Shown piece by piece: positions 42,936-54,225 of a stretch of DNA of 64,000 nt. A program made the translations under genes and the position numbers. How positions within the stretch are numbered: the first letter of the stretch is position 1; each line of letters opens with the position of its first letter. Origin of the DNA: Rhodocyclaceae bacterium (GTDB taxonomy: Bacteria > Pseudomonadota > Gammaproteobacteria > Burkholderiales > Ga0077523); the NCBI GenBank assembly GCA_020248405.1, contig JADCHQ010000001.1:62001-126000 (forward strand). Direction: 5' to 3'. Below the pieces are notes generated by a model that was not told the DNA's origin, made no database searches, and saw only the letters and a program-made list of their open reading frames with translations.

Positions 42936-44432
42936 ATGGGCAAACCCGAACTCTTCGAAACCATTCCAGACGCCCTGGCGGACAAGGACGAACTGGTGCG
43001 CCGGCTGCTCGAGGGCCTGCCCGCGCACTGCGTTTTGCACGCCCCCGAGCAACTCAAGCCCTACGAATGCGACGGCCTGTCGGCCTTTCGCGAGGTGCCG
43101 CTGGCGGTGGCCCTGCCCGAGACCGAAGAACAGGTGGTGCACGCGCTGCGCACCTGCCATGGCGTGCGCGTACCGGTGGTGGCACGCGGCGCCGGCACCG
43201 GCCTGTCGGGCGGCGCCCTGCCCCACCCGCGCGGCGTGACCCTGGGCCTGTCGAAGATGAAGTCCATCCTCGCCCTCGACCCTCTGGCGCGCACCGCGCG
43301 CGTGCAGCCCGGCGTGCGCAACCTTGCCATCTCCGAGGCGGCCGCGAAGCATGGCCTGTACTACGCCCCCGACCCCTCCTCGCAGATCGCCTGCTCCATC
43401 GGCGGCAACGTGGCCGAGAATTCCGGCGGGGTGCACTGCCTGAAGTACGGCCTCACGGTGCACAACGTGCTGGCCGTGCGGCTGGTCACCATCGAGGGCG
43501 AAGTGCTCGAACTGGGGGGCGAGGGACTCGACGCCGCCGGCCTCGACCTGCTGGCGCTCGCCATCGGCTCGGAGGGCCTGCTGGGTGTGGTGACCGAAAT
43601 CACCGTCAAGCTGCTGCCCCGGCCGCAACTGGCGCGCGTGGTGCTGGCCGCCTTCGGCTCGCTCGAGAAAGCCGGCGAAGCCGTGGCCAATGTCATTGGC
43701 GCGGGCATCATCCCGGCGGGCCTGGAGATGATGGACCGGCTCGCCACCGGCGCGGTGGAGCAGTTCGTGCACGCCGGCTACCCGCTCGACGCCGAAGCCA
43801 TCCTGCTGTGCGAATCCGACGGCACGCCCGAGGAGGTGGCCGAGGACATCGAGCGCATGATCGAGGTAATGCGCGCCAGCGGCGCCACCGAGATCCGCCT
43901 CTCGCGCGACGAAGCGGAGCGGCTGCGGTTTTGGTCGGGCCGCAAGTCCGCCTTCCCCGCCGTGGGGCGCCTCATGCCCGATTACTTCTGCATGGACGGC
44001 ACCATCCCCAAGCGCCAGCTGGGCCGGGTGCTGCGCGGCATCGAGAAGCTCTCGGCGGAATTCGGCCTCAAGTGCCCAAACGTGTTCCACGCCGGCGACG
44101 GTAACCTGCACCCGCTCATCATGTTCGACGCCAACGTGCCGGGCCAGCAGGAGCAGGCCAGCCGCTTCGGGGCGCGCATCCTCGAGTTGTGCGTGGAGGC
44201 CGGCGGCACCATCACCGGCGAGCACGGCGTGGGCATCGAGAAGATCGACCAGATGTGCGCGCAGTTCCGCCCCGACGAACTCGCCACCTTCCATGCCGTG
44301 AAGGCCGCCTTCGATGCGCAGCGTCTGCTCAACCCCGGCAAGGCAGTGCCCACGCTGCAGCGCTGCGCGGAATTCGGCGCCATGCACGTGCACCACGGCG
44401 AGCAGAAGTTTCCCGAGCTACCGCGGTTCTGA
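42936..44432 (+). CDS. glcD: glycolate oxidase subunit GlcD (FAD-linked)
   Basis: A 498-residue flavoprotein of the GlcD/D-lactate dehydrogenase family. The FAD-binding domain includes ARGAGTGLSGGALPH and CSIGGNVAENSGG. The C-terminal FAD-linked oxidase domain has HAGDGNLHPL and GEHGVGIEK. With GlcE and GlcF it oxidises glycolate to glyoxylate at the inner membrane, passing electrons to the respiratory chain. Gene order D-E-F and the neighbouring glycerate genes support glycolate over D-lactate. Confidence 0.95.
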   Translation: MGKPELFETIPDALADKDELVRRLLEGLPAHCVLHAPEQLKPYECDGLSAFREVPLAVALPETEEQVVHALRTCHGVRVPVVARGAGTGLSGGALPHPRGVTLGLSKMKSILALDPLARTARVQPGVRNLAISEAAAKHGLYYAPDPSSQIACSIGGNVAENSGGVHCLKYGLTVHNVLAVRLVTIEGEVLELGGEGLDAAGLDLLALAIGSEGLLGVVTEITVKLLPRPQLARVVLAAFGSLEKAGEAVANVIGAGIIPAGLEMMDRLATGAVEQFVHAGYPLDAEAILLCESDGTPEEVAEDIERMIEVMRASGATEIRLSRDEAERLRFWSGRKSAFPAVGRLMPDYFCMDGTIPKRQLGRVLRGIEKLSAEFGLKCPNVFHAGDGNLHPLIMFDANVPGQQEQASRFGARILELCVEAGGTITGEHGVGIEKIDQMCAQFRPDELATFHAVKAAFDAQRLLNPGKAVPTLQRCAEFGAMHVHHGEQKFPELPRF

Positions 44433-44471
44433 TCCTCACCCTGTCGCCGCCCGCTGCAACGCCCCCCGCCC

Positions 44472-45527
44472 GTGCTCGATCAGTTCGCCGACACCATCCG
44501 CGCCGCCGCCGCCCGCGGCGCCAGCCTGCGCATCCGCGGCGGTGGCGGGAAAGACTTCTACGGCGTGCGTCTGGAGGGTGACGTGCTCGACACCACCGGC
44601 CACACGGGCGTGGTGAACTACGACCCTTCCGAACTGGTGATCACCGTGCGCGCGGGCACACCGGTGGCGGAGGTGGAGGCGGTGCTGGCCGGGCGTGGCC
44701 AGATGCTCGCCTTCGAGCCGCCGCGCCTCAATGCCGCCGGCACCATCGGCGGCGCCATCGCCAGCGGCTGGTCGGGCCCCCGTCGAGTGGCTGCCGGCTC
44801 GGCGCGCGACTTCGTGCTCGGCGTGCGGCTGCTCGACGCCCGCGCCCGGCCGCTGTCCTTTGGCGGACAGGTGATGAAGAACGTGGCGGGCTACGACCTG
44901 TCGCGCTTTCTGGCCGGCTCCTTCGGCACCCTGGCCCTCATCACCGAGGTATCCCTGAAGGTGCTGCCGCGCCCCGTGGCCGAGGCCACGCTGCGCTTCG
45001 AGCTGGATGAAGCCGCCGCCCTGGACACCGTCAACCGCTGGGCCGGCCAGCCCCTGCCCCTGTCCGCTAGTTGCCACATGGACGCGGCGCTGTGGGTACG
45101 GCTGTCGGGCGCCTGTGCCGCCGTGGACGCCGCCCTGGCGCGGCTGGGCGGCGAGCGCGTGGACGATGCCGAAGCCGCGCGCTTCTGGGCCTCGCTGCGC
45201 GACCAGACCCACCCGTTCTTCGCCACCGCCTCCACCCTGTGGCGGCTGTCGATCCGGGGCACGGCTGCACCCCTCGGGCTGGGTGCGCAGCTCACGGAGT
45301 GGCACGGGGGGCTGCGCTGGATCGCCGCGCCGCTGGAAGCCCAGGTTGCCCACGCCGCGGCCCGCGGCTCCGGCGGCCACGCCACCCTGTATCGCGCCGA
45401 CGCTGCCCTGCGGTCCGGCGGCATCCAGCACCTGGGCTCCGCCGTGCTGGCCCTGCACCAGCGCTTGAAGCAGGCCCTCGACCCGCAAGGTCTGTTCGGG
45501 GCGCACCGCCTGCACCCTGATTTCTGA
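44472..45527 (+). CDS. glcE: glycolate oxidase subunit GlcE (FAD-binding)
   Basis: A 351-residue FAD-binding subunit, the usual GlcE length. It holds the PCMH-type FAD domain (RIRGGGGKDFYG, GTIGGAIASGWSGPRR, QVMKNVAGYDLSRF) without the full C-terminal oxidase domain of GlcD. Translation starts with GTG at 44472, 39 bp after glcD. It is needed with GlcD and GlcF for an active glycolate oxidase complex. Confidence 0.94.
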   Translation: MLDQFADTIRAAAARGASLRIRGGGGKDFYGVRLEGDVLDTTGHTGVVNYDPSELVITVRAGTPVAEVEAVLAGRGQMLAFEPPRLNAAGTIGGAIASGWSGPRRVAAGSARDFVLGVRLLDARARPLSFGGQVMKNVAGYDLSRFLAGSFGTLALITEVSLKVLPRPVAEATLRFELDEAAALDTVNRWAGQPLPLSASCHMDAALWVRLSGACAAVDAALARLGGERVDDAEAARFWASLRDQTHPFFATASTLWRLSIRGTAAPLGLGAQLTEWHGGLRWIAAPLEAQVAHAAARGSGGHATLYRADAALRSGGIQHLGSAVLALHQRLKQALDPQGLFGAHRLHPDF

Positions 45528-45536
45528 GCGCTGCCC

Positions 45537-46793
45537 GTGGAAACCCATCTCGCCGACTTCATCAAGGACACACCCGAGGGCCGCGAGGCCGAGGCCATCC
45601 TGCGCCGCTGCGTGCACTGCGGCTTCTGCACCGCCACCTGCCCAACCTACCAGTTGCTGGGCGACGAGCTGGACGGGCCGCGCGGCCGCATCTATCTCAT
45701 CAAGCAAGTGCTCGAAGGCGCACCCGCCACGGCCAACACCCAGCTGCACCTGGACCGCTGCCTCACCTGCCGCTCCTGCGAATCCACCTGCCCCTCCGGC
45801 GTGGCCTACGGCAGGCTGGCCGACATCGGTCGCAAGGTGGTGGAAGACCAGGTGGGCCGCGGCCCCCTGGACGGCCTGAAGCGCAAGCTTCTGGCCACCG
45901 GCCTGTCCAGTCCGGCGCTGTTCGGGTCCGCTGCCGCCGCAGGCCGCGCGGTGCGCGGCCTGCTGCCCCAGTCGCTGCGCCAGAAGCTGCCCGACGCCGA
46001 TCCGGCCGGCCCCTGGCCGCCCGCACGCCACGCCCGGCGCATGGTGGTGCTGGAGGGCTGCGTGCAGCCCTCCCTGGCGCCGGACATCAATGCCGCTGCC
46101 GCGCGGGTGCTCGACCGGATCGGCATTTCGCTCATCCGTGCGCCGCGGGCGGGGTGCTGCGGCGCAGTGGAATTCCACCTCAACTACCAGGACGCCGGGC
46201 GCGAGGCCATGGGCCGCAACGTGGACGCCTGGTTCCCGCTGCTGGAGCAGGGCGTGGAGCGCGTGGTCATCACGGCCAGCGGCTGCGGCAGCACGGTAAA
46301 GGAGTACGGCCATCACCTTGGCGATCACCCGCGCCTCGCCGGGGCCGCGCAGCGGGTGTCGGTCGCCAGCGCCGACCTCACCGAAGTGCTGGAAGCCGAA
46401 AGCGCCGCGCTGGTGCCGCTGCTGCAACGGGCAGCCGCGTCGCGGCCCCGCCGCCCCCTGGCCTGGCACTCGCCGTGTTCGCTGCAGCACGGTCAGCAGA
46501 TTCGCGGCAAGGCCGAAGCACTGCTGGAGGCCGCCGGCTTCCACCTCACGGCCGTGCCCGACGCGCACCTGTGCTGCGGCTCGGCCGGCACCTATTCGCT
46601 GTTACAGCCCGAACTGTCCCAGCAGTTGCTGCGCAACAAAGTGGCTGCGCTGGCCTCGGGCGCGCCCGAGGGTGTGGCCACGGCCAACATCGGCTGCCTC
46701 ACCCACATTCAAAGCGGCACGGCGCTGCCGGTGCAGCACTGGGTGCAGTGGATCGACGCGGTGCTGGACCAGCCCCCGCCTGCCGCTAGTTGA
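45537..46793 (+). CDS. glcF: glycolate oxidase iron-sulfur subunit GlcF
   Basis: A 418-residue subunit with two [4Fe-4S] motifs: Cys25/28/31/35 (CVHCGFCTATCP) and Cys75/78/81/85 (CLTCRSCESTCP). Two CCG domains follow (GCCGAVEFH and LCCGSAGTY regions). It relays electrons from the flavin subunits to quinone. Translation starts with GTG at 45537, 9 bp after glcE. Its stop overlaps the convergent hypothetical gene by 8 bp. Confidence 0.95.
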   Translation: METHLADFIKDTPEGREAEAILRRCVHCGFCTATCPTYQLLGDELDGPRGRIYLIKQVLEGAPATANTQLHLDRCLTCRSCESTCPSGVAYGRLADIGRKVVEDQVGRGPLDGLKRKLLATGLSSPALFGSAAAAGRAVRGLLPQSLRQKLPDADPAGPWPPARHARRMVVLEGCVQPSLAPDINAAAARVLDRIGISLIRAPRAGCCGAVEFHLNYQDAGREAMGRNVDAWFPLLEQGVERVVITASGCGSTVKEYGHHLGDHPRLAGAAQRVSVASADLTEVLEAESAALVPLLQRAAASRPRRPLAWHSPCSLQHGQQIRGKAEALLEAAGFHLTAVPDAHLCCGSAGTYSLLQPELSQQLLRNKVAALASGAPEGVATANIGCLTHIQSGTALPVQHWVQWIDAVLDQPPPAAS

Positions 46794-47331
46794 GCACCCG
46801 GCTCGCGCCAGTTTCGGAAGCGCCCAGGGCCGGTTTCGGCAACTCCAGACGCAGATCCCACTCGGCCTTTTCCACGGCGGCCTGGGTGAGGCGCATGAGC
46901 CCATGTAAAAGGCTATCGCCCAGGGTGAGGTGCGCCCCCTGGCCCTCGGCGGGCAGCAGCGCCAGCAGACTGCGCTCGGCATCCACGCGGCGCGCCTGGA
47001 TGCGCATGATGAGCAGCGGCGCTTCACCCAGCGGCCGGTCGCGCGGCGGCTGGGGCCCTTGCGGTGCGGTTTGCTCCTCGCGGGTGGAAAGCTGCACCTC
47101 GCGCAGCGCCTTTTCGTGGGCAAACTGCAGGATGGCGCTGCGCGCTTCGGGGTCGGCCTGGCGCTGAATTTCGGGTTTGCCCTCGGCCAGTTGCAGCATG
47201 GCCAGCCACAGCCGCTTCACGCAGCGCCGCGTCAGCCACAACAACACCTCGGTCTGGCCATCCACCAGGATGCGCATCACCAGGCGGTCCTGTTCGGGTT
47301 CGAAATCGACGCGAATCTTTTCCAGGCGCAT
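46786..47331 (-). CDS. hypothetical cytoplasmic protein (unrecognised)
   Basis: A 181-residue protein without signal peptide or membrane helix. It begins MRLEKIRVDFEPEQDRLVMRI, suggesting an N-terminal beta-strand domain, then LWLTRRCVKRLWLAMLQLAE, a basic amphipathic helix. The middle is Gln/Pro/Arg-rich (APQGPQPPRDRP), and the end is a leucine-rich helical stretch (HLTLGDSLLHGLMRL). I do not recognise the family. It converges on glcF with an 8-bp overlap. The ATG at 47331 lies only about 45 bp from a strong minus-strand terminator, so its promoter must overlap or sit very close to that hairpin. Confidence 0.7.
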   Translation of the reverse strand: MRLEKIRVDFEPEQDRLVMRILVDGQTEVLLWLTRRCVKRLWLAMLQLAEGKPEIQRQADPEARSAILQFAHEKALREVQLSTREEQTAPQGPQPPRDRPLGEAPLLIMRIQARRVDAERSLLALLPAEGQGAHLTLGDSLLHGLMRLTQAAVEKAEWDLRLELPKPALGASETGASRVLN

Positions 47332-47374
47332 GGCGCAGGCTCGTGCAGGGTGTGAACCGATTCTACCCTCCACG

Positions 47375-47556: not shown

Positions 47557-47571
47557 CGGGAATGCTTCCCG
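47557..47571. promoter_or_regulatory. CGGGA-N5-TCCCG palindrome just after the SBP gene
   Basis: CGGGAATGCTTCCCG has the same CGGGA-N5-TCCCG form as the two palindromes between the kinase and TonB genes. It lies 9 bp beyond the SBP stop and about 230 bp upstream of the hypothetical gene at 47331. It may be a further regulator site, or simply a 6-bp hairpin at the mRNA end; there is no T-tract. Confidence 0.35.
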
Positions 47572-47579
47572 CGCGAGGA

Positions 47580-48776
47580 TCAGGGCACCGCGGGCGCGAG
47601 CTGCCAATTGCGGCCGTCGAAGCGCAGCAACACCAGGTCCTCCACCGGGTAGTAGTCGGTCTTGGAGGTGGTGACCCGCACACCCGGGAACAACATGGGG
47701 AACTCCACGTTGGTCATGCTGGTGGCCACCTTCATGATGTTGTCGCGCGACAGGTCATCGCCCGCCTGGCGCAGCACGTACTCGAGCGCCTGGGCCACCT
47801 GGTAGCCGTGGGCGGCGATGCCGTCCATGGGGTTACCGTCGTAGAACTTGCGCGCCCATTCCAGGTACTTCCGGATGGCCACGTCCTGGGCGAAGGCGAT
47901 GGTGTCGGGCGCCTTGGCGTAGTAGGCCGAGTGCATGCCTGCGGCGTTTTCCAGGCCACCGGGCTCGAGCACCGTCTTGACTGCGGCGCTGGCAATGCCC
48001 GTGTAGTGCACGGGCCTCCAGCCAATTTCGCCCATCTTGCGCAGCACCTGAGAAGCGTGTTTTCCGCCCATGGCACTGAACAGGGTGTCGGCACCCGAGG
48101 CCTTCAACGCCACCACCTGGGTGTCCACGGTGGGATCGGTGAGTTCGTAGGTCTGCTCGGCCACGATCATGGTCCTGGCCTTGTCGCCCAAGGCGTCCCG
48201 CAGGCCCGCCAGGTAGTCTCGGCCGTACTCGTCGTTGAGGGTGAGGGTGCCGATCTTTGCGTTGGGGCGCGTCTTGAGGATGTGCCGGCCGTAGAGCTGG
48301 CCCTCGTGGCGGTAGGAAGGCATCCACCCCATGGTCCAGGGGAATTTCTCGTGATCGCCCCAGGCGCTGTCGCCGCCGGCCACGAACAGCTGCGGCACCT
48401 TCTTCGCGTTGAGGTACTTGCGCACCGCCAGGTTGTTTGGCGTGCCCACGGAACTGAACATGAGCAGCACCTGGTCCTGCTCCACCAGGCGCCGGGTGTG
48501 CTCCACGGTCTTGGAGGGCAGCGAGGCATCGTCCAGGCTGATGAAGCGCACCTTGCGGCCGTTGATGCCGCCGGCGGCGTTGATGGCGTCGAAGAAGCCC
48601 TTGTGGGCCTTGCCCAGGGCGGCATAGGCCGACAGCGGCCCGCTGTAGGGCATGGTCTGGCCGATCAGGATCTCCGTCTCGGTAACGCCGGGCCCGGTGT
48701 ACTTCTGCGCCAGCGCGGGAAGCGCGCACAGAACGAGCGCCGCAGTGAGCGAGGCGGCGCGGATGGGCGATGCCAT
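47580..48776 (-). CDS. periplasmic ABC substrate-binding protein, LivK/branched-chain amino-acid type
   Basis: A 398-residue binding protein with a signal peptide (cut near ALPALAQ). The mature start GVTETEILIGQTMPYSGPLSAYAALGKA is typical of the type I periplasmic-binding LivK/HAAT family, with DDASLPSKTVEHTRRLVEQ following. No LivHMGF genes are adjacent. Instead it lies 79 bp after a response regulator and kinase on the same strand, so it may feed a signalling role or a transporter encoded elsewhere. Family members bind amino acids, aromatic acids or amides; the ligand is unknown. The ATG at 48776 has CAGGAG upstream. Confidence 0.88.
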   Translation of the reverse strand: MASPIRAASLTAALVLCALPALAQKYTGPGVTETEILIGQTMPYSGPLSAYAALGKAHKGFFDAINAAGGINGRKVRFISLDDASLPSKTVEHTRRLVEQDQVLLMFSSVGTPNNLAVRKYLNAKKVPQLFVAGGDSAWGDHEKFPWTMGWMPSYRHEGQLYGRHILKTRPNAKIGTLTLNDEYGRDYLAGLRDALGDKARTMIVAEQTYELTDPTVDTQVVALKASGADTLFSAMGGKHASQVLRKMGEIGWRPVHYTGIASAAVKTVLEPGGLENAAGMHSAYYAKAPDTIAFAQDVAIRKYLEWARKFYDGNPMDGIAAHGYQVAQALEYVLRQAGDDLSRDNIMKVATSMTNVEFPMLFPGVRVTTSKTDYYPVEDLVLLRFDGRNWQLAPAVP

Positions 48777-48855
48777 GAGGGGTCTCCTGGAAATTGCGGG
48801 GCGCCGCACGGGCGCACGGCGACGAAAGTCTAACAGCCGCTCGAGGCGGCCGCTG

Positions 48856-49536
48856 TCAGCGCCCGCCGGCGCTCTCCACCGCCGCCACCGGGTCGTTGTC
48901 CAGCATGCCGTGCATCATGGCCATGCGCACCACCTGGGCGGTGTTGGAGACGTCGAGCTTGGCGCGGATGTTGGACTGGTGATTGGCCACGGTCTTGTAG
49001 GACAGCGACAGGATGCGGCCGATCTCGCCAATCGAATGGCCGGCCACCAGCAGCCGGAACACCTCGAACTCCCGCGGGCTCAGGGCCTGCAGCGGGTTGT
49101 CGTGGCCGGGCAGCATCTGCACCGCCAGCTCCTGCGCCATATCGTGGCTGATGTAGAGCTTGCCCTCCGCCACCAGCCGCACCGCCTCCACCAGCACCTC
49201 GGGCGCGCTCGACTTGGTGACGTAGCCCCGCGCGCCCATCTGCAGCGCCCGGGACGGGAACACCACGTCCTCGTGCATGCTGAACATGAGAATGCGCGCC
49301 TGGGGCTCGCGCGCCAGGATACGCCGCGCGCACTCCAGCCCCCCGATGCCGGGCAGGTTGATGTCCAGCACCGTCACATGGGGGACATGCTCCACGAACA
49401 GCCGATAGGCGTCCTCGCCGCTGGCGGCCTCGGCCACCACGGTGATATCGCTGGTGCGCTCCAGCAGGCGGCGATAGCCCTCGCGCACCACGGCGTGATC
49501 GTCGGCGAGCAGAACAGTGGTCTTGTTCGGGGGCAT
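48856..49536 (-). CDS. NarL/FixJ-type response regulator
   Basis: A 226-residue regulator. The receiver has acidic Asp12-Asp13, the phospho-acceptor Asp58 (VLDINLPG) and the Lys in YVTKSS. A LuxR-type helix-turn-helix follows: LSPREFEVFRLLVAGHSI, then TVANHQSNIRAKL. It starts 24 bp after the kinase stop, forming a two-component pair. It is the prime candidate to bind the CGGGA palindromes at 50651-50725. The ATG at 49536 has GGAG 9 nt upstream; a TTG six codons earlier is less likely. Confidence 0.92.
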   Translation of the reverse strand: MPPNKTTVLLADDHAVVREGYRRLLERTSDITVVAEAASGEDAYRLFVEHVPHVTVLDINLPGIGGLECARRILAREPQARILMFSMHEDVVFPSRALQMGARGYVTKSSAPEVLVEAVRLVAEGKLYISHDMAQELAVQMLPGHDNPLQALSPREFEVFRLLVAGHSIGEIGRILSLSYKTVANHQSNIRAKLDVSNTAQVVRMAMMHGMLDNDPVAAVESAGGR

Positions 49537-49560
49537 GGATTCGTTCTCCGGCAAAAGTCT

Positions 49561-50535
49561 CTAAAGAGGGATGACGGCGCTCACCCGCAGACCGCCGCGG
49601 GCGCCACGCTCCAGCGCGAAGCGGCCGCGCAGCACTTCCACCCGCTCGCGCAGGCCTAGCAGCCCCAGCCCCAGACGCGGCTCGCCGCCGGGCGGCAGGC
49701 CTTTGCCGTCATCTTCCACGCTCACGTGCAAGCTGGCAGCGCCCTGGAGGTGGCGCAGTTCGATGCGCACTTCCCTCGCCTGGGCGTGCTTGGTGACGTT
49801 GGTGAGGCACTCCTGCACCAGTCTATAGACGGTGATGTTGAGGCTCTCGCCCAGGCCGTCGATGCTGCCGTCGGTCTCGAAGCTGCAGCGCACTTCCGGA
49901 TGACGGCGTCGCCATTGGTCCACCAAGTACTGCACCGCCGAAGGCAGGCCCAGCTCGTCCAGGGCCACGGGGCGCAGCCGGCGCATGAGGTTGCGGGCCA
50001 CTTCGTACACGTGATTGGCCACCTCGATGATGGCGCGCGACAGCGCCCGGGCGTCCTCCGGCAGGTCGGTGCGATCGCGCAGCGCCACGGCGTCGAGCTT
50101 GAGGGCGTTGAGCCACTGCCCCATTTCATCGTGCAGCTCGCGGGCGATGTTGCGCCGCTCGTCCTCCTGCACCTGGATGCTGCGCTGGACCAGCAGACGG
50201 TTCTCCGCCAGGGTGGCTGCCAGCCGGTCCTGGGCGTGCAGGCGCAGGCGCATCTCCGCCGCCGCCTGGCGGTGCCGCCGCCAGGAATACCAGGTGAGGC
50301 CTGCCAGCATGGCCACCAGGGCCAGCGGGAGTTCGTCCACCTGCCAGCTCTCCAGAGCGCGCATGCGGGTCGCGAAGCCCTCCGATAGCTCGAGCCACGA
50401 GCCCAGCAGGAAAGTGCCCAGGGTGATGCCGGCCACCAGGGCGAGGTCGCGGCGCGCCTGGTTGAGAGGGCGGTGCTCACCCGGAGTTGCGCCGGACAGC
50501 ACAGCGCTGCCGGGATTCAGGGAAGGTGCATGCAT
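49561..50535 (-). CDS. sensor histidine kinase, HisKA_3 (NarX/UhpB-like)
   Basis: A 324-residue kinase with two membrane helices (about residues 32-50 and 69-85) enclosing a periplasmic loop of under 20 residues. A coiled linker follows, then the HisKA_3 box with His135 (RRNIARELHDEMGQ) and an ATPase domain (DDGKGL, GLGLLGLRERV). The loop is too small for a usual sensor domain, so input may come through the membrane, the linker or a partner such as the SBP encoded downstream. It is divergent from the TonB receptor. A promoter TTGAGG-N18-TATAAG is visible on the minus strand at 50597-50626. Confidence 0.92.
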   Translation of the reverse strand: MHAPSLNPGSAVLSGATPGEHRPLNQARRDLALVAGITLGTFLLGSWLELSEGFATRMRALESWQVDELPLALVAMLAGLTWYSWRRHRQAAAEMRLRLHAQDRLAATLAENRLLVQRSIQVQEDERRNIARELHDEMGQWLNALKLDAVALRDRTDLPEDARALSRAIIEVANHVYEVARNLMRRLRPVALDELGLPSAVQYLVDQWRRRHPEVRCSFETDGSIDGLGESLNITVYRLVQECLTNVTKHAQAREVRIELRHLQGAASLHVSVEDDGKGLPPGGEPRLGLGLLGLRERVEVLRGRFALERGARGGLRVSAVIPL

Positions 50536-50864
50536 GGGCCAGGGCCAGGGGGGAGCGATCGAGCGCGGGAGTGCCCCTCTTCGGGGCCATGTGAGGCTTA
50601 TACCGAAACAGGGCGGCTTGCCTCAAGGCCGCGGGATTCCGGTCCGCAGCCGGGAATATCTCCCGATGCGGCAGCCAGGGCCGCGCTCCTGCCGCCCCCG
50701 AGGCGTGAAGCGGGAGAATTTCCCGGCCCAGCGCGGGAATCCGGCTTGCCGCTCCCGGCACCCGCACCGAATACCCTTCCGGCCTTCAGAAGAAGATGCG
50801 CTGCCGCCGTTGTGGCGGCACGCGCAGTCATCGCCTCGATCCCAAACCGCCCGAGAGCCTCCTC
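50536..50864. promoter_or_regulatory. divergent control region with a symmetric CGGGA operator array
   Basis: Between the kinase and the TonB receptor lie two palindromes, CGGGAATATCTCCCG (50651-50665) and CGGGAGAATTTCCCG (50711-50725), 60 bp apart centre to centre. They are flanked by CGGGATTCCGG (50632-50642) and CGGGAATCCGG (50734-50744). A TCCCG half lies at 50753-50757. The kinase promoter TTGAGG-N18-TATAAG (minus, 50597-50626) puts its nearest palindrome near -68. A weaker TonB promoter (TTGCCG at 50746-50751, AATACC at 50770-50775) puts the other near -64. This looks like a shared binding array for the NarL-type regulator. No B12 or other riboswitch is seen. Confidence 0.6.
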
Positions 50865-53237
50865 ATGCGTCCAGCCCCCACCCGCCTGACCCGCAGCGCC
50901 ATTTCCGCCGCCGTAGCCGCCGCCTTCGCCGGCCCCGCCGTAGCCGACAACGACCGCCCGGCCACCCTCGAAGCCCCCACCGTCAAGGTGATCGGCGTCA
51001 CCCCGCTGCCCGGCGTGGGCTTGCCGCTCAACAAGGTGCCCGGCAACGTGCAGACCCTCACCGCCAAGGACGTGCAGCAGCAGCAGGCGGTGGGTCTGCC
51101 GGATCTCATGACCACGGCGCTGCCCTCGGTCAACGTGAACGACGTGCAGGGCAACCCCTTCCAGCCGGATGTGAACTACCGCGGCTTCACCGCCTCGCCG
51201 CTGCTGGGGCTGCCCCAGGGCCTGTCGGTGTTTCAGGACGGCGTGCGCATCAACGAGCCCTTCGGCGACGTGGTGAACTGGGCGCTGGTGCCCATGGATT
51301 CCATCAGCACCATGAATGTCATCCCCGGCTCCAATCCGCTGTTCGGCCTCAACACCCTGGGCGGCGCCCTGTCGCTGCGCACCAAGAGCGGTTTCCAGTT
51401 CCCCAACACGGCCTTCGAACTGTCCGGCGGCAGCTGGGGGCGGGCCAACGGCAAGTTCGAACACGGCGGCTACAGCGGCAACAAGGACTACTACATCGCC
51501 GGCAACTGGTTCAAGGAAGACGGCTGGCGACAGTTCTCTCCCTCCGACGTGAAGACCTTCTTCGCCAAGAGCGGCTGGCAGGATGGCCGCACCGACCTGG
51601 ACGTGTCCCTCACCCTGGCCGACACCAACCTCACCGGCAACGGCGTGGCACCCCAGAGCTTCCTGGAGCAAAGCCGCAACCGCATCTTCACCCAGCCCGA
51701 CCAGACCATCGCCCGCATGGCGATGCTCAACTTCACCGGCAGCCACTGGCTCAATGACACCGACAACCTGCAGGGAAATGTGTATGTGCGCGGCACGCGC
51801 ATCCGTACGCTGAACGGCGATGCCAACGACGGTTTCGAGGGGGGGGCCTTCGACGGCGACACGGCTGCCGTCGACGGCGGCCTTTGCCCGGGCGCCGGGT
51901 GCAACACCGAAACCGGCGCCAACAACCGCTCGCGCACCAACAGCCGCTCCTTCGGTGCCAATCTCCAGTGGACGCGCGCGGTGCAGAACAACCAGTTCAC
52001 CTTCGGCGGCAGCTACGACAACGCCCGCGCCGACTTCCGCTCTACCCAGACTCTGGGTGTCATCAACGCCGACCGGGGCGTGACCGAGACCAACGCCACC
52101 ACCGACGAGGCGGCCCTCATCGGCCGCACCGTCACCTCCAGCCTGTTCCTCACCGACACCTGGACCTTCCGGCCCAACTGGCACCTCACCGGCTCGGCGC
52201 GCTACAACTACACGCGGGTGAAGAACAACGACACCCTCAACCCCGGCGTGGCGGGCAACCTGGACGGCAACTACGTCTACCCGCGCCTGAACCCCGCCGT
52301 GGGCCTGAACTGGACCCCCTCCGACGCCCTAACTCTGTACGGCACGGTAAACCAGGGAAACCGCGCGCCCACGCCCATCGAGCTGGGCTGCGCGGACCCA
52401 GCCAACCCGTGCCGCCTGCCCAACGCCATGGCCGCCGACCCCTTCCTCAAGCAGGTGGTGGCCACCACGGTGGAGGTGGGCGCACGCGGCATGTTCAACG
52501 ACTGGCTGGGCTACAGCTCGGCGCTGTTCCGCACCGTCAACCGCGACGACATCCTGTTCGTGAGCACCACCACCAGCGCCGGCTTCTTCACCAACTTCGG
52601 CCGCACCCAGCGCGAAGGCATCGAGCTCGGGCTCACGGGGGCCAAGGGCCGGTGGGATTTCCGCGCCAACTACACCTACCTGCGGGCCACCTTCGAATCC
52701 GAGGCCGACCTGCTGGCCGAAAACAACTCTTCCCGCGGCTTCGGCGGGGTGGCCGCGGACGACCAGATTCGCGTCCGGCCCGGCGACCGCATTCCCGGCA
52801 TGCCCCAGCACCAGTTCCGCATCAACGCCAACTACCGCCTCACCGACGCCTGGAGCGTCGGCGCCAACGTGATCGCCATGACCGGGGTATACGCCCGCGG
52901 CAACGAGAACAACCAGCACCAGGCCGGGACCGTGACCGACCCCATCGGCGGGGATACGCGAACCTTCAACGGCGCGGGCAAGACCTCGGACTACGCCGTG
53001 CTGAACCTGGTGACCAACTACAAGCTCACCTCCCAGTGGCAGCTCTTCGGGCGCATCAATAACGTGTTCGACAACCGCTTCAACACCGCCGCCATCCTGG
53101 CCGAGAATCCCTTCAATGCCGCGGGCGTGTTCCAGACCAACTCCGGGGATTGGGCCCGCGAAACCTTCTACGGCCCCGGCGCGCCCCGGGCCGCCTGGAT
53201 CGGCGTGCGATACTTCCTCGAACGCCAGCCGCGCTGA
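50865..53237 (+). CDS. TonB-dependent outer-membrane receptor
   Basis: A 790-residue receptor with a signal peptide (residues 1-27, ending PAVAD). The plug domain (GNVQTLTAKDVQQQQAVGLPDLM, YRGFTASPLLGLPQGLSVFQDGVRINEPFGD) matches the FecA-like layout, and a 22-strand barrel follows. A TonB box could lie near APTVKVIGV. A pair of Cys in a loop (CPGAGC) may form a disulfide. The substrate is unknown: siderophore, metal chelate or another large solute. It is divergent from the two-component genes and followed 46 bp later by a periplasmic beta-propeller, likely one operon. The ATG at 50865 is the only start with a signal peptide. Confidence 0.9.
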   Translation: MRPAPTRLTRSAISAAVAAAFAGPAVADNDRPATLEAPTVKVIGVTPLPGVGLPLNKVPGNVQTLTAKDVQQQQAVGLPDLMTTALPSVNVNDVQGNPFQPDVNYRGFTASPLLGLPQGLSVFQDGVRINEPFGDVVNWALVPMDSISTMNVIPGSNPLFGLNTLGGALSLRTKSGFQFPNTAFELSGGSWGRANGKFEHGGYSGNKDYYIAGNWFKEDGWRQFSPSDVKTFFAKSGWQDGRTDLDVSLTLADTNLTGNGVAPQSFLEQSRNRIFTQPDQTIARMAMLNFTGSHWLNDTDNLQGNVYVRGTRIRTLNGDANDGFEGGAFDGDTAAVDGGLCPGAGCNTETGANNRSRTNSRSFGANLQWTRAVQNNQFTFGGSYDNARADFRSTQTLGVINADRGVTETNATTDEAALIGRTVTSSLFLTDTWTFRPNWHLTGSARYNYTRVKNNDTLNPGVAGNLDGNYVYPRLNPAVGLNWTPSDALTLYGTVNQGNRAPTPIELGCADPANPCRLPNAMAADPFLKQVVATTVEVGARGMFNDWLGYSSALFRTVNRDDILFVSTTTSAGFFTNFGRTQREGIELGLTGAKGRWDFRANYTYLRATFESEADLLAENNSSRGFGGVAADDQIRVRPGDRIPGMPQHQFRINANYRLTDAWSVGANVIAMTGVYARGNENNQHQAGTVTDPIGGDTRTFNGAGKTSDYAVLNLVTNYKLTSQWQLFGRINNVFDNRFNTAAILAENPFNAAGVFQTNSGDWARETFYGPGAPRAAWIGVRYFLERQPR

Positions 53238-53283: not shown

Positions 53284-54225
53284 ATGAAACGCCTCCTGCC
53301 CGCGCTCGCCGCGGGCTTTTTCTGCGCCCTGCAGGCGGCAGCCGCCCCCCTGGCCTACGTGGCCAACGAAAAGTCGGGCACCATCTCCATCATCGACACC
53401 GCCACCGACGAGGTGGTGGGCACCATCAAGGCGGGCACCAAGCCCCGCGGCCAGGCTGTGGGTGCGGACGGCCGCACCCTGTACGTGAGCGACCAGCCCG
53501 CCAACGCCCTGCTGGTGGTGGACCTGGAGAAGCGAGCCGTGGCCGGCACCATCGACCTGGGCGAATCGCCCGAGGGCGTGAGCCGCTCGCCCGACGGCAA
53601 GTGGGTGGTGGTGGCGGTGGAGATGAGCAACAGCGCCGCCTTCATCGACACCGCCTCGGGCCGCAAGCTGTTCAATATCAAGACCCGCGGCGAGAATCCG
53701 GAGCACGCCGTGTTCAGCCCCGACGGCCGCTGGCTGTATGTGAGCGCCGAGGAGGCCGACCAGGTGGACATCGTGGACGTGGCCGCACAGAAGCAGGTGG
53801 CGGCGGTGAAGGTGGCCAAGCGCCCGCGCGGCATCGCCTTCCTGCCCGACGGATCGCGCGCCTATGTGGCCTGCGAGTTCGACAGCAAGGTGTTTGCCAT
53901 CGACGTGGCCACCCAGAAGGTGGTGGCCGAAATCAAGGCGGGCACCTTCTCCAACGGCGTCGCGGTCCACCCCGACGGCAAGCGCGTGTACGTGTCCAAC
54001 GGCAAGGACGCCAGCGTGTCGGTCATCGACACCGCCACCAACACGGTGAGCGCCACCATCGCCGTGGGCAAGCGCCCCTGGAACATGGCCATCACCCCGG
54101 ACGGTACCAAGCTTTACGTGGCCAACGGCAGGGATAACTCCGTGAGCGTTATCGATACGGCCACGAACCGCAAGTTGAGAGACATTCCCGTGGGCGAGAT
54201 CCCCTGGGGGGTGGTGATCCGCTGA
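53284..54225 (+). CDS. periplasmic YVTN/YncE-type beta-propeller
   Basis: A 313-residue protein with a signal peptide (residues 1-20, QAAAA). About seven repeats of the YVTN type follow, seen as YVANEKSGTISIIDTAT, YVSDQPANALLVVDL, YVSAEEADQVDIVDV, YVACEFDSKVFAIDV, YVSNGKDASVSVIDT and YVANGRDNSVSVIDT. YncE-like propellers are often co-expressed with TonB receptors, and some bind metals or DNA. Position behind the receptor suggests it handles or senses the same ligand in the periplasm. The ATG at 53284 follows GAGGATCACTTC. Confidence 0.9.
   Translation: MKRLLPALAAGFFCALQAAAAPLAYVANEKSGTISIIDTATDEVVGTIKAGTKPRGQAVGADGRTLYVSDQPANALLVVDLEKRAVAGTIDLGESPEGVSRSPDGKWVVVAVEMSNSAAFIDTASGRKLFNIKTRGENPEHAVFSPDGRWLYVSAEEADQVDIVDVAAQKQVAAVKVAKRPRGIAFLPDGSRAYVACEFDSKVFAIDVATQKVVAEIKAGTFSNGVAVHPDGKRVYVSNGKDASVSVIDTATNTVSATIAVGKRPWNMAITPDGTKLYVANGRDNSVSVIDTATNRKLRDIPVGEIPWGVVIR

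Follow-up and report, generated by a model that had tools for sequence, protein, structure and literature searches.

Response regulators of the NarL type mostly activate transcription from positions well upstream of the -10 element. The heptamer recognized by Escherichia coli NarL is TACYYMT, and DosR (DevR) of Mycobacterium tuberculosis recognizes a box with the consensus TTSGGGACTWWAGTCCCSAA, in which GGGACT half-sites are arranged as GGGA-N6-TCCC, with tandem sites placed upstream of the -35. In DosR, three residues that contact bases are Lys179, Lys182 and Asn183 (PMC4082495). Two-component switches have also been described for rare-earth uptake, by a mechanism that is still unsettled according to a review (PMC11845868). 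In the accessible portions of a mostly open-access literature (PMC12997753, PMC5018670, PMC12482762, PMC6115532, PMC4082495, PMC11845868) we found no operator for regulators of the kind considered here, and none for the MxaY/MxaB-type switch.

The locus lies in a window of 64 kb, by which we mean the whole stretch of DNA analysed, and its genes were called with a simple composition heuristic that leaves some gene starts uncertain. On the minus strand, a sensor histidine kinase (49561-50535; HisKA_3, 2.7e-12, and HATPase_c) has two apparent membrane spans, which are joined by the short acidic loop LELSEGFATRMRALESWQVDELP, and this loop is conserved in the comparison with relatives. The kinase gene is directly upstream of that for a response regulator on the same strand (48856-49554, starting at 49554 or 49536), which possesses a receiver domain (Response_reg, 1.2e-26) and a GerE/LuxR domain (1.9e-16) with the recognition helix SYKTVANHQSNIR. 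The receiver and GerE domains and the adjacent HisKA_3 kinase are those of the NarL/FixJ (LuxR-type) family. Close behind the regulator, a periplasmic binding protein gene (SBP; Peripla_BP_6; 47580-48809, minus strand) is likely part of the same operon, and further on is a gene without a Pfam match (46786-47373, minus strand), homologues of which are found near the regulator in relatives. On the plus strand, diverging from the kinase, are a TonB-dependent receptor (50865-53237), to which, among solved structures, only E. coli YncD is related at E<=1e-15, and a YVTN/YncE-like beta-propeller protein (53284-54225). The receptor more likely starts at 50865 than at 50796, because a predicted signal peptide begins there and the starts of relatives align with it. 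Glycolate-oxidase-like genes (an FAD-linked oxidase, a second FAD-binding subunit and a 4Fe-4S subunit) lie beside the locus at 42936-46793, and such genes are also present near the regulator locus in several relatives. In one relative a PEP-CTERM protein gene (L047, 11021-11869) comes directly after the second of the TonB receptors at the regulator locus, with similar arrangements in others.

The gap between the kinase and the receptor contains four elements at the positions given by the first-pass annotation, with a mirror symmetry that is exact to the base about 50688. Two CGGGA-N5-TCCCG palindromes, CGGGAATATCTCCCG (50651-50665, the primary site on the kinase side) and CGGGAGAATTTCCCG (50711-50725, the primary site on the TonB side), are enclosed by the motifs CGGGATTCCGG (50632-50642) and CGGGAATCCGG (50734-50744), all four read directly from the sequence. 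The 11-mers of these flanking motifs have no other copy in the 64 kb on either strand. The annotation had overlooked a third exact palindrome, CGGGAATGCTTCCCG (47557-47571), which follows the SBP stop codon by 8 bp and is upstream of the 46786-47373 gene. The three exact copies in the window compare with a mean of 0.21 and a maximum of 2 in 150 first-order Markov simulations, in none of which was there a pair separated by 100 bp or less. Copies with one mismatch were not in excess in the window (4 found, 5.8 expected).

The genome-wide search for exact CGGGA-N5-TCCCG that the annotation had proposed gave a count below that of the control: the pattern is not enriched in the organism's own genome, where there are 12 copies and 47 of the reversed control pattern. 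A ranking of 1024 half-sites with 16 spacers each was then available from 17 loci surrounding orthologous regulators, 63-85% identical, drawn from relatives in the same genus (78-85% in most of them) and from named metagenome-assembled genomes; runs of N were excluded and some of the loci share assemblies. GGGAA-N3-TTCCC ranked first, with 24 copies against 0.28 expected, in 13 of the 17 loci. Because the exact CGGGA-N5-TCCCG form was at or below chance and also ranked lower in the relatives, it was replaced by the GGGAA-N3-TTCCC form, and the core of the motif is CGGGAA-N3-TTCCCG. Exact GGGAA-N3-TTCCC summed over 12 genomes occurs 68 times, compared with 25 for the control; in the own genome alone there is no excess (3 versus 5 for the control). 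A strict 19-mer, ATCGGGAA-N3-TTCCCGAT, was found in 1 of 369 genomes of the class, with no relative of eight query proteins within 1.5 kb, and was set aside as a chance match.

A matrix was constructed from 19 sites in the loci of relatives, with the window left out; its consensus is ATCGGGAATAATTCCCGAT. Applied to the 64 kb, this matrix placed the three palindromes of the window at the top, with scores of 19.9 for palindrome 1, 15.7 for the copy at 47557 and 15.6 for palindrome 2, followed by a fourth match at 8.0. The site at 47557 has a parallel in a relative (L058), in which a site scoring 15.1 is upstream of a homologue of the 46786-47373 gene, and this gene is a possible target. In the relatives the sites have an AT-rich centre and a fixed register. 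Most of these genomes possess a single strong palindrome in the gap, and primary sites about 60 bp apart are present also in L285 (59 bp) and L064 (66 bp). Among 55 upstream regions of more distant kinases, a site of at least 14 is present in 12, and the motif is no higher than fifth in rank.

The register of the sites bears on the nature of the flanking motifs. Around 57 intergenic sites scoring at least 14, the mean second-site score is highest at offsets of +23 and +22 bp (positive values being towards the gene), which exceed other offsets by 3.5 and 3.0 SD and give the strongest off-centre signal; the next peaks are at +11 and -22. This count left out strong sites within predicted genes, included the training loci and took some paired sites from both sides; with these provisos, positive second-site scores were obtained at +23, +22, -22 and -23 for 7, 6, 6 and 2 of the 57 sites. 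A pair of sites on contig C35 of the own genome is spaced by 23 bp. In the window, the last base of CGGGATTCCGG is 23 bp before that of palindrome 1, and the first base of CGGGAATCCGG is 23 bp after that of palindrome 2. The corresponding full-length positions are 50628-50642 on the kinase side, at an exact distance of 23 bp from palindrome 1 and with a full-site score of -17.4 (the mean elsewhere is -32), and 50734-50748 on the TonB side, at the same distance from palindrome 2 and with a score of -10.8. The flanking motifs are therefore not a separate element in the interpretation that we prefer; they are best read, from their spacing, as degenerate half-sites in a 22-23 bp tandem register.

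Promoters on both sides of the gap had been predicted by the first-pass annotation. A consensus scan of 50400-51000 detected no sigma-70 promoter, and candidates emerged from a comparison of 30 promoters aligned on their sites, in which -10 signals appear 47, 53 and 57 bp from the site centre. For the kinase operon this comparison proposes a -35 of TTGAGG (50626-50621), an 18-bp spacer and a -10 of TATAAG (50602-50597) on the minus strand; the kinase promoters of the window, L058 and L059 have a GGTATAA -10 in common, and the -10 elements of the tonB operons are TAGAGT-like. Relative to this proposed promoter (50597-50626), the flanking motif, the near palindrome and the far palindrome would be centred at about -45, -68 and -128, close to the spacing that had been claimed for the kinase side. 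The TonB side yielded a weak candidate on the plus strand (50746-50774), TTGCCG-N17-GAATAC, with a poor match to the -10.

As a whole, these data make it probable that the array serves as operator for the DosR-like response regulator encoded next to it (48856-49554), which would activate both promoters of a metal- or PQQ-linked regulon; binding, activation and cooperativity are predicted here from sequence comparison. In this scheme each CGGGAA-N3-TTCCCG, lying about 60-70 bp ahead of a start site, would be bound by a dimer of the phosphorylated regulator; cooperativity would hold another dimer on the weaker site, or half-site, 22-23 bp nearer the gene and beside the -35. On the kinase side the bound regulator would activate the kinase-regulator-SBP operon, and hence its own synthesis, and on the other side the TonB receptor and its beta-propeller partner. 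The secondary sites in the window are half-sites only, with negative scores as full sites, and this counts against the proposed arrangement, as does the weakness of the candidate promoter on the TonB side. The suggestion that a single regulator serves both directions holds insofar as the sites are of a regulatory type, are tied to the adjacent regulator and recur between divergent genes in relatives; the four-part mirror array itself is not a conserved design.

The same regulator might instead bind these sites as a repressor, with its dimers blocking RNA polymerase at one or both promoters until a signal relieves the block. A palindrome of this kind could equally be used by a repressor, and the secondary half-site is close to the -35. 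However, the primary sites are 47, 53 or 57 bp from the -10, well upstream and in the usual position for an activator, and we consider repression unlikely.

The identity of the protein that reads the palindromes can be approached through the recognition helix. Among 92 regulators compared, 50 carry a KTxAN helix, 41 an xTVGTH helix and one neither. A site scoring at least 17 is nearby for 34 of the 50 KTxAN regulators and for none of the 41 with xTVGTH; the remaining 16 KTxAN regulators lack a nearby site. After the training loci and the window were removed, a site was present within about 4.4 kb at 19 of 27 KTxAN regulators versus 0 of 41 of the other class (Fisher P = 6.6e-11, a value that ignores kinship). 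The KTxAN helix thus predicts regulators that read the site, and xTVGTH those that do not. An annotated Ideonella plasmid outside the training set presents the same divergent order of TonB receptor, gap, kinase and regulator, with a KTVANH helix and the acidic loop, and its gap contains sites scoring 20.5 and 13.1. On this plasmid (I. dechloratans, L298, 101814-116431) the neighbouring annotations are for a nickel transporter, an MbnP-type copper-binding protein and a cytochrome c peroxidase.

It is less probable still that some other factor, such as the second LuxR-type regulator of several relatives or an unlinked regulator, binds the palindromes and that the adjacency is incidental. Several relatives do possess two KTxAN regulators per locus, and there are Methylophilaceae in which two kinase-regulator pairs share sites. 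Against this, the sites track the regulator locus across lineages, and the own genome encodes only two regulators at E<=1e-50, the other of which (on contig C43) has a PRTIGTH helix, of the class in which none of 41 has a site nearby. This paralogue was rejected as the reader of the site on the basis of its helix and of a 14 kb locus with no site of at least 12. The paralogous pair (C43, 158000-173700) consists of a regulator 46% identical to that of the window and a kinase with HAMP and PAS domains; it is flanked on one side by an FTR1/ABC-type iron cluster that has a TonB receptor and on the other by pqqE, and the three match positions are similarly linked in several members of the genus. 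A reading of the palindromes as hairpins in RNA, either terminators or mRNA structures, or as products of chance in G+C-rich DNA, which the location of the 47557 copy just past a stop codon and the chance-level number of one-mismatch matches in the window might suggest, is barely credible, given that the gap lies between two gene starts with no terminator-like site in 50400-51000, that the sites of relatives share an AT-rich centre and fixed register, and that the exact sites exceed simulation.

Frequent palindromes without relation to promoters would have spoken against a regulatory role, and in this respect the outcome was mostly favorable. Of 18 one-mismatch sites in the own genome 17 were examined, of which 11 are inside ORFs (two of these scoring above 15) and 6 are intergenic, facing the regulator locus, exbB-exbD or PepSY genes. 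The intergenic sites are the three at the window locus and one each on C35 (PepSY, 27.1), C32 (exbB-exbD, 17.1) and C26 (a second PepSY gene, 8.9). The gene at C35 encodes a small protein that has a pair of PepSY domains and an apparent signal peptide; the C26 site, at 76391, is an exact GGGAA-N3-TTCCC that was not counted as strong.

In the relatives, a site upstream of tonB-exbB-exbD was present in all five genomes read (14.2 in G002, 21.5 in G003, 26.3 in G004, 21.5 in G007 and 24.8 in G011). These upstream regions were obtained separately and lie outside a set of 30 scanned ExbD loci, two of which, those of the own genome and G008, have matches of at least 14. In G008, sites are found at exbB (23.7), at FTR1 (22.7) and at the next TonB receptor (22.6); G004 has one scoring 28.0 at a TonB receptor divergent from bfd-bfr, and G011 one of 22.4 at a TonB receptor. 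Six genomes possess FTR1, and a site of at least 12 accompanies it in G008 only, with one match of 11.4 in G006. Among PepSY upstream regions, 3 of 14 loci contain a site of at least 14. In Methylophilaceae the site precedes several kinase genes (29.9 in L083, L088 and L098), and in L083 a site of 22.7 is between the kinase-regulator pair and an mxaF dehydrogenase gene, whose HDEWDFAGVN signature we take to be of the Ca type. In L074 the kinase has a PepSY gene as its neighbour, and behind the regulator there are exbB-exbD-tonB-like genes. The recurring targets are thus the kinase-regulator operon, TonB receptors, tonB-exbB-exbD, PepSY proteins and FTR1, with mxaF in Methylophilaceae. No evident link to such a target exists for many of the exact sites in G002 or for some of those in other genomes. 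In G004 (C13, L189), a site at 2518 scoring 27.2 is about 200 bp upstream of a gene for a His-rich exported protein (HGRHDGFRDHGFHDRG...), possibly a metal-binding target.

The wider regulon would serve the outer-membrane uptake of a metal or of a metal- or PQQ-linked substrate, and its members would include the TonB receptors, TonB-ExbB-ExbD and the LanPepSY-like PepSY proteins, with FTR1 and mxaF in relatives. As to the signal, iron is indicated by FTR1 and bfd-bfr and by sequences resembling Fur boxes close to tonB and exbB; the LanPepSY-like proteins, mxaF and the organism's own Ln-type dehydrogenase (NDPYDYDGVN, in which the second Asp is presumably the Ln-type mark) point towards rare earths. 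A near-perfect Fur-box-like sequence, AATAAGAATGATTCTTAAG, is located between the palindrome and exbB on C32 (L247), and a similar sequence overlaps the tonB promoters of relatives; these neighbouring elements suggest dual control. The own dehydrogenase is a PQQ alcohol dehydrogenase with Asp-x-Asp (C7, 33000-37500, L295), behind which are a gene for a small exported protein and one that is cytochrome-like; the weak palindrome just past its stop (35676, score 8.0) was treated as due to chance. A purely iron-responsive regulon may be too narrow a reading, as the mxaF target of Methylophilaceae and the PepSY proteins do not fit iron alone; PQQ uptake through PQQ auxotrophy was rejected, as the own genome has pqqE. 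In Methylobacillus flagellatus the protein levels of the two two-component systems were unchanged with La3+, as reported in a review (PMC11845868), and this counts against a rare-earth signal. Because the kinase carries a short acidic loop, a metal ion is a plausible signal; that the loop itself binds the metal is a guess.

More speculatively, and we would not presently wager on it, (T)CGGGAA-NNN-TTCCCG(A), accompanied by a further site 22-23 bp closer to the gene, may be the operator code of a whole family of two-component systems in Betaproteobacteria that respond to rare earths or metals. Direct sensing of the metal would fall to the kinase, by means of an acidic loop of 20 residues that is conserved (LSE...E.YQ.DELP), and the regulator would bring TonB receptors, the TonB motor, LanPepSY-like carriers and PQQ dehydrogenases together in a single regulon. 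The recurrence of the site before outer-membrane metal-uptake and alcohol-oxidising genes suggests a readable regulatory code for metal acquisition. With a dependable operator, the regulon could be read from any related genome, and the TonB receptors and small carriers that act together in metal, possibly rare-earth, uptake would be named.

The resemblance to described systems is partial in each case. The array contains no match to the NarL heptamer, in agreement with the first-pass annotation, and although the regulator belongs to the same fold family, its site is an odd-length palindrome with a one-base centre. DosR is closer, being a NarL-family regulator with GGGA half-sites and tandem sites, which are here in a 22-23 bp register and, in the window, half-sites only. 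In a putative alignment of the helices, K187 and N191 would correspond to DosR Lys179 and Asn183, so that two of three contacts would match; an Ala occupies the position of Lys182. The spacing also differs from the DosR consensus, with GGGA-N5-TCCC and an inner half of GGGAA here, and N6 and GGGACT in DosR, which moreover has heme-sensor kinases and a hypoxia regulon. DosR was absent from the GerE-domain matches at E<=0.001.

In its pairing of a LuxR-type regulator with a kinase the locus resembles MxaY/MxaB, the rare-earth switch of methanol dehydrogenase, in which such a pair is tied to PQQ dehydrogenases. The homologous locus of Methylophilaceae faces mxaF in L076, L078, L083 and L110, whereas that of the window has neither mxaF nor xoxF beside it. 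The window kinase consists of HisKA_3 and HATPase and lacks the LapD_MoxY_N domain, taken as MoxY-typical from its Pfam name, of other Methylophilaceae kinases. The TonB receptor and YncE-like propeller recall the PqqU (YncD)-YncE pair of E. coli (YncD structure 6V81), but the receptor, at 104.6 bits, is far below the cut-off of 1200 for the PqqU equivalog. Finally, the C35 target resembles LanPepSY of M. flagellatus in being small and putatively exported with two PepSY domains. It matches the solved entries 9VY3-9VYA with E 2.8e-41, of which we infer from the deposited name that 9VY3 is LanPepSY, and it is related to the Methylobacillus protein encoded beside the kinase-regulator pair in L074.
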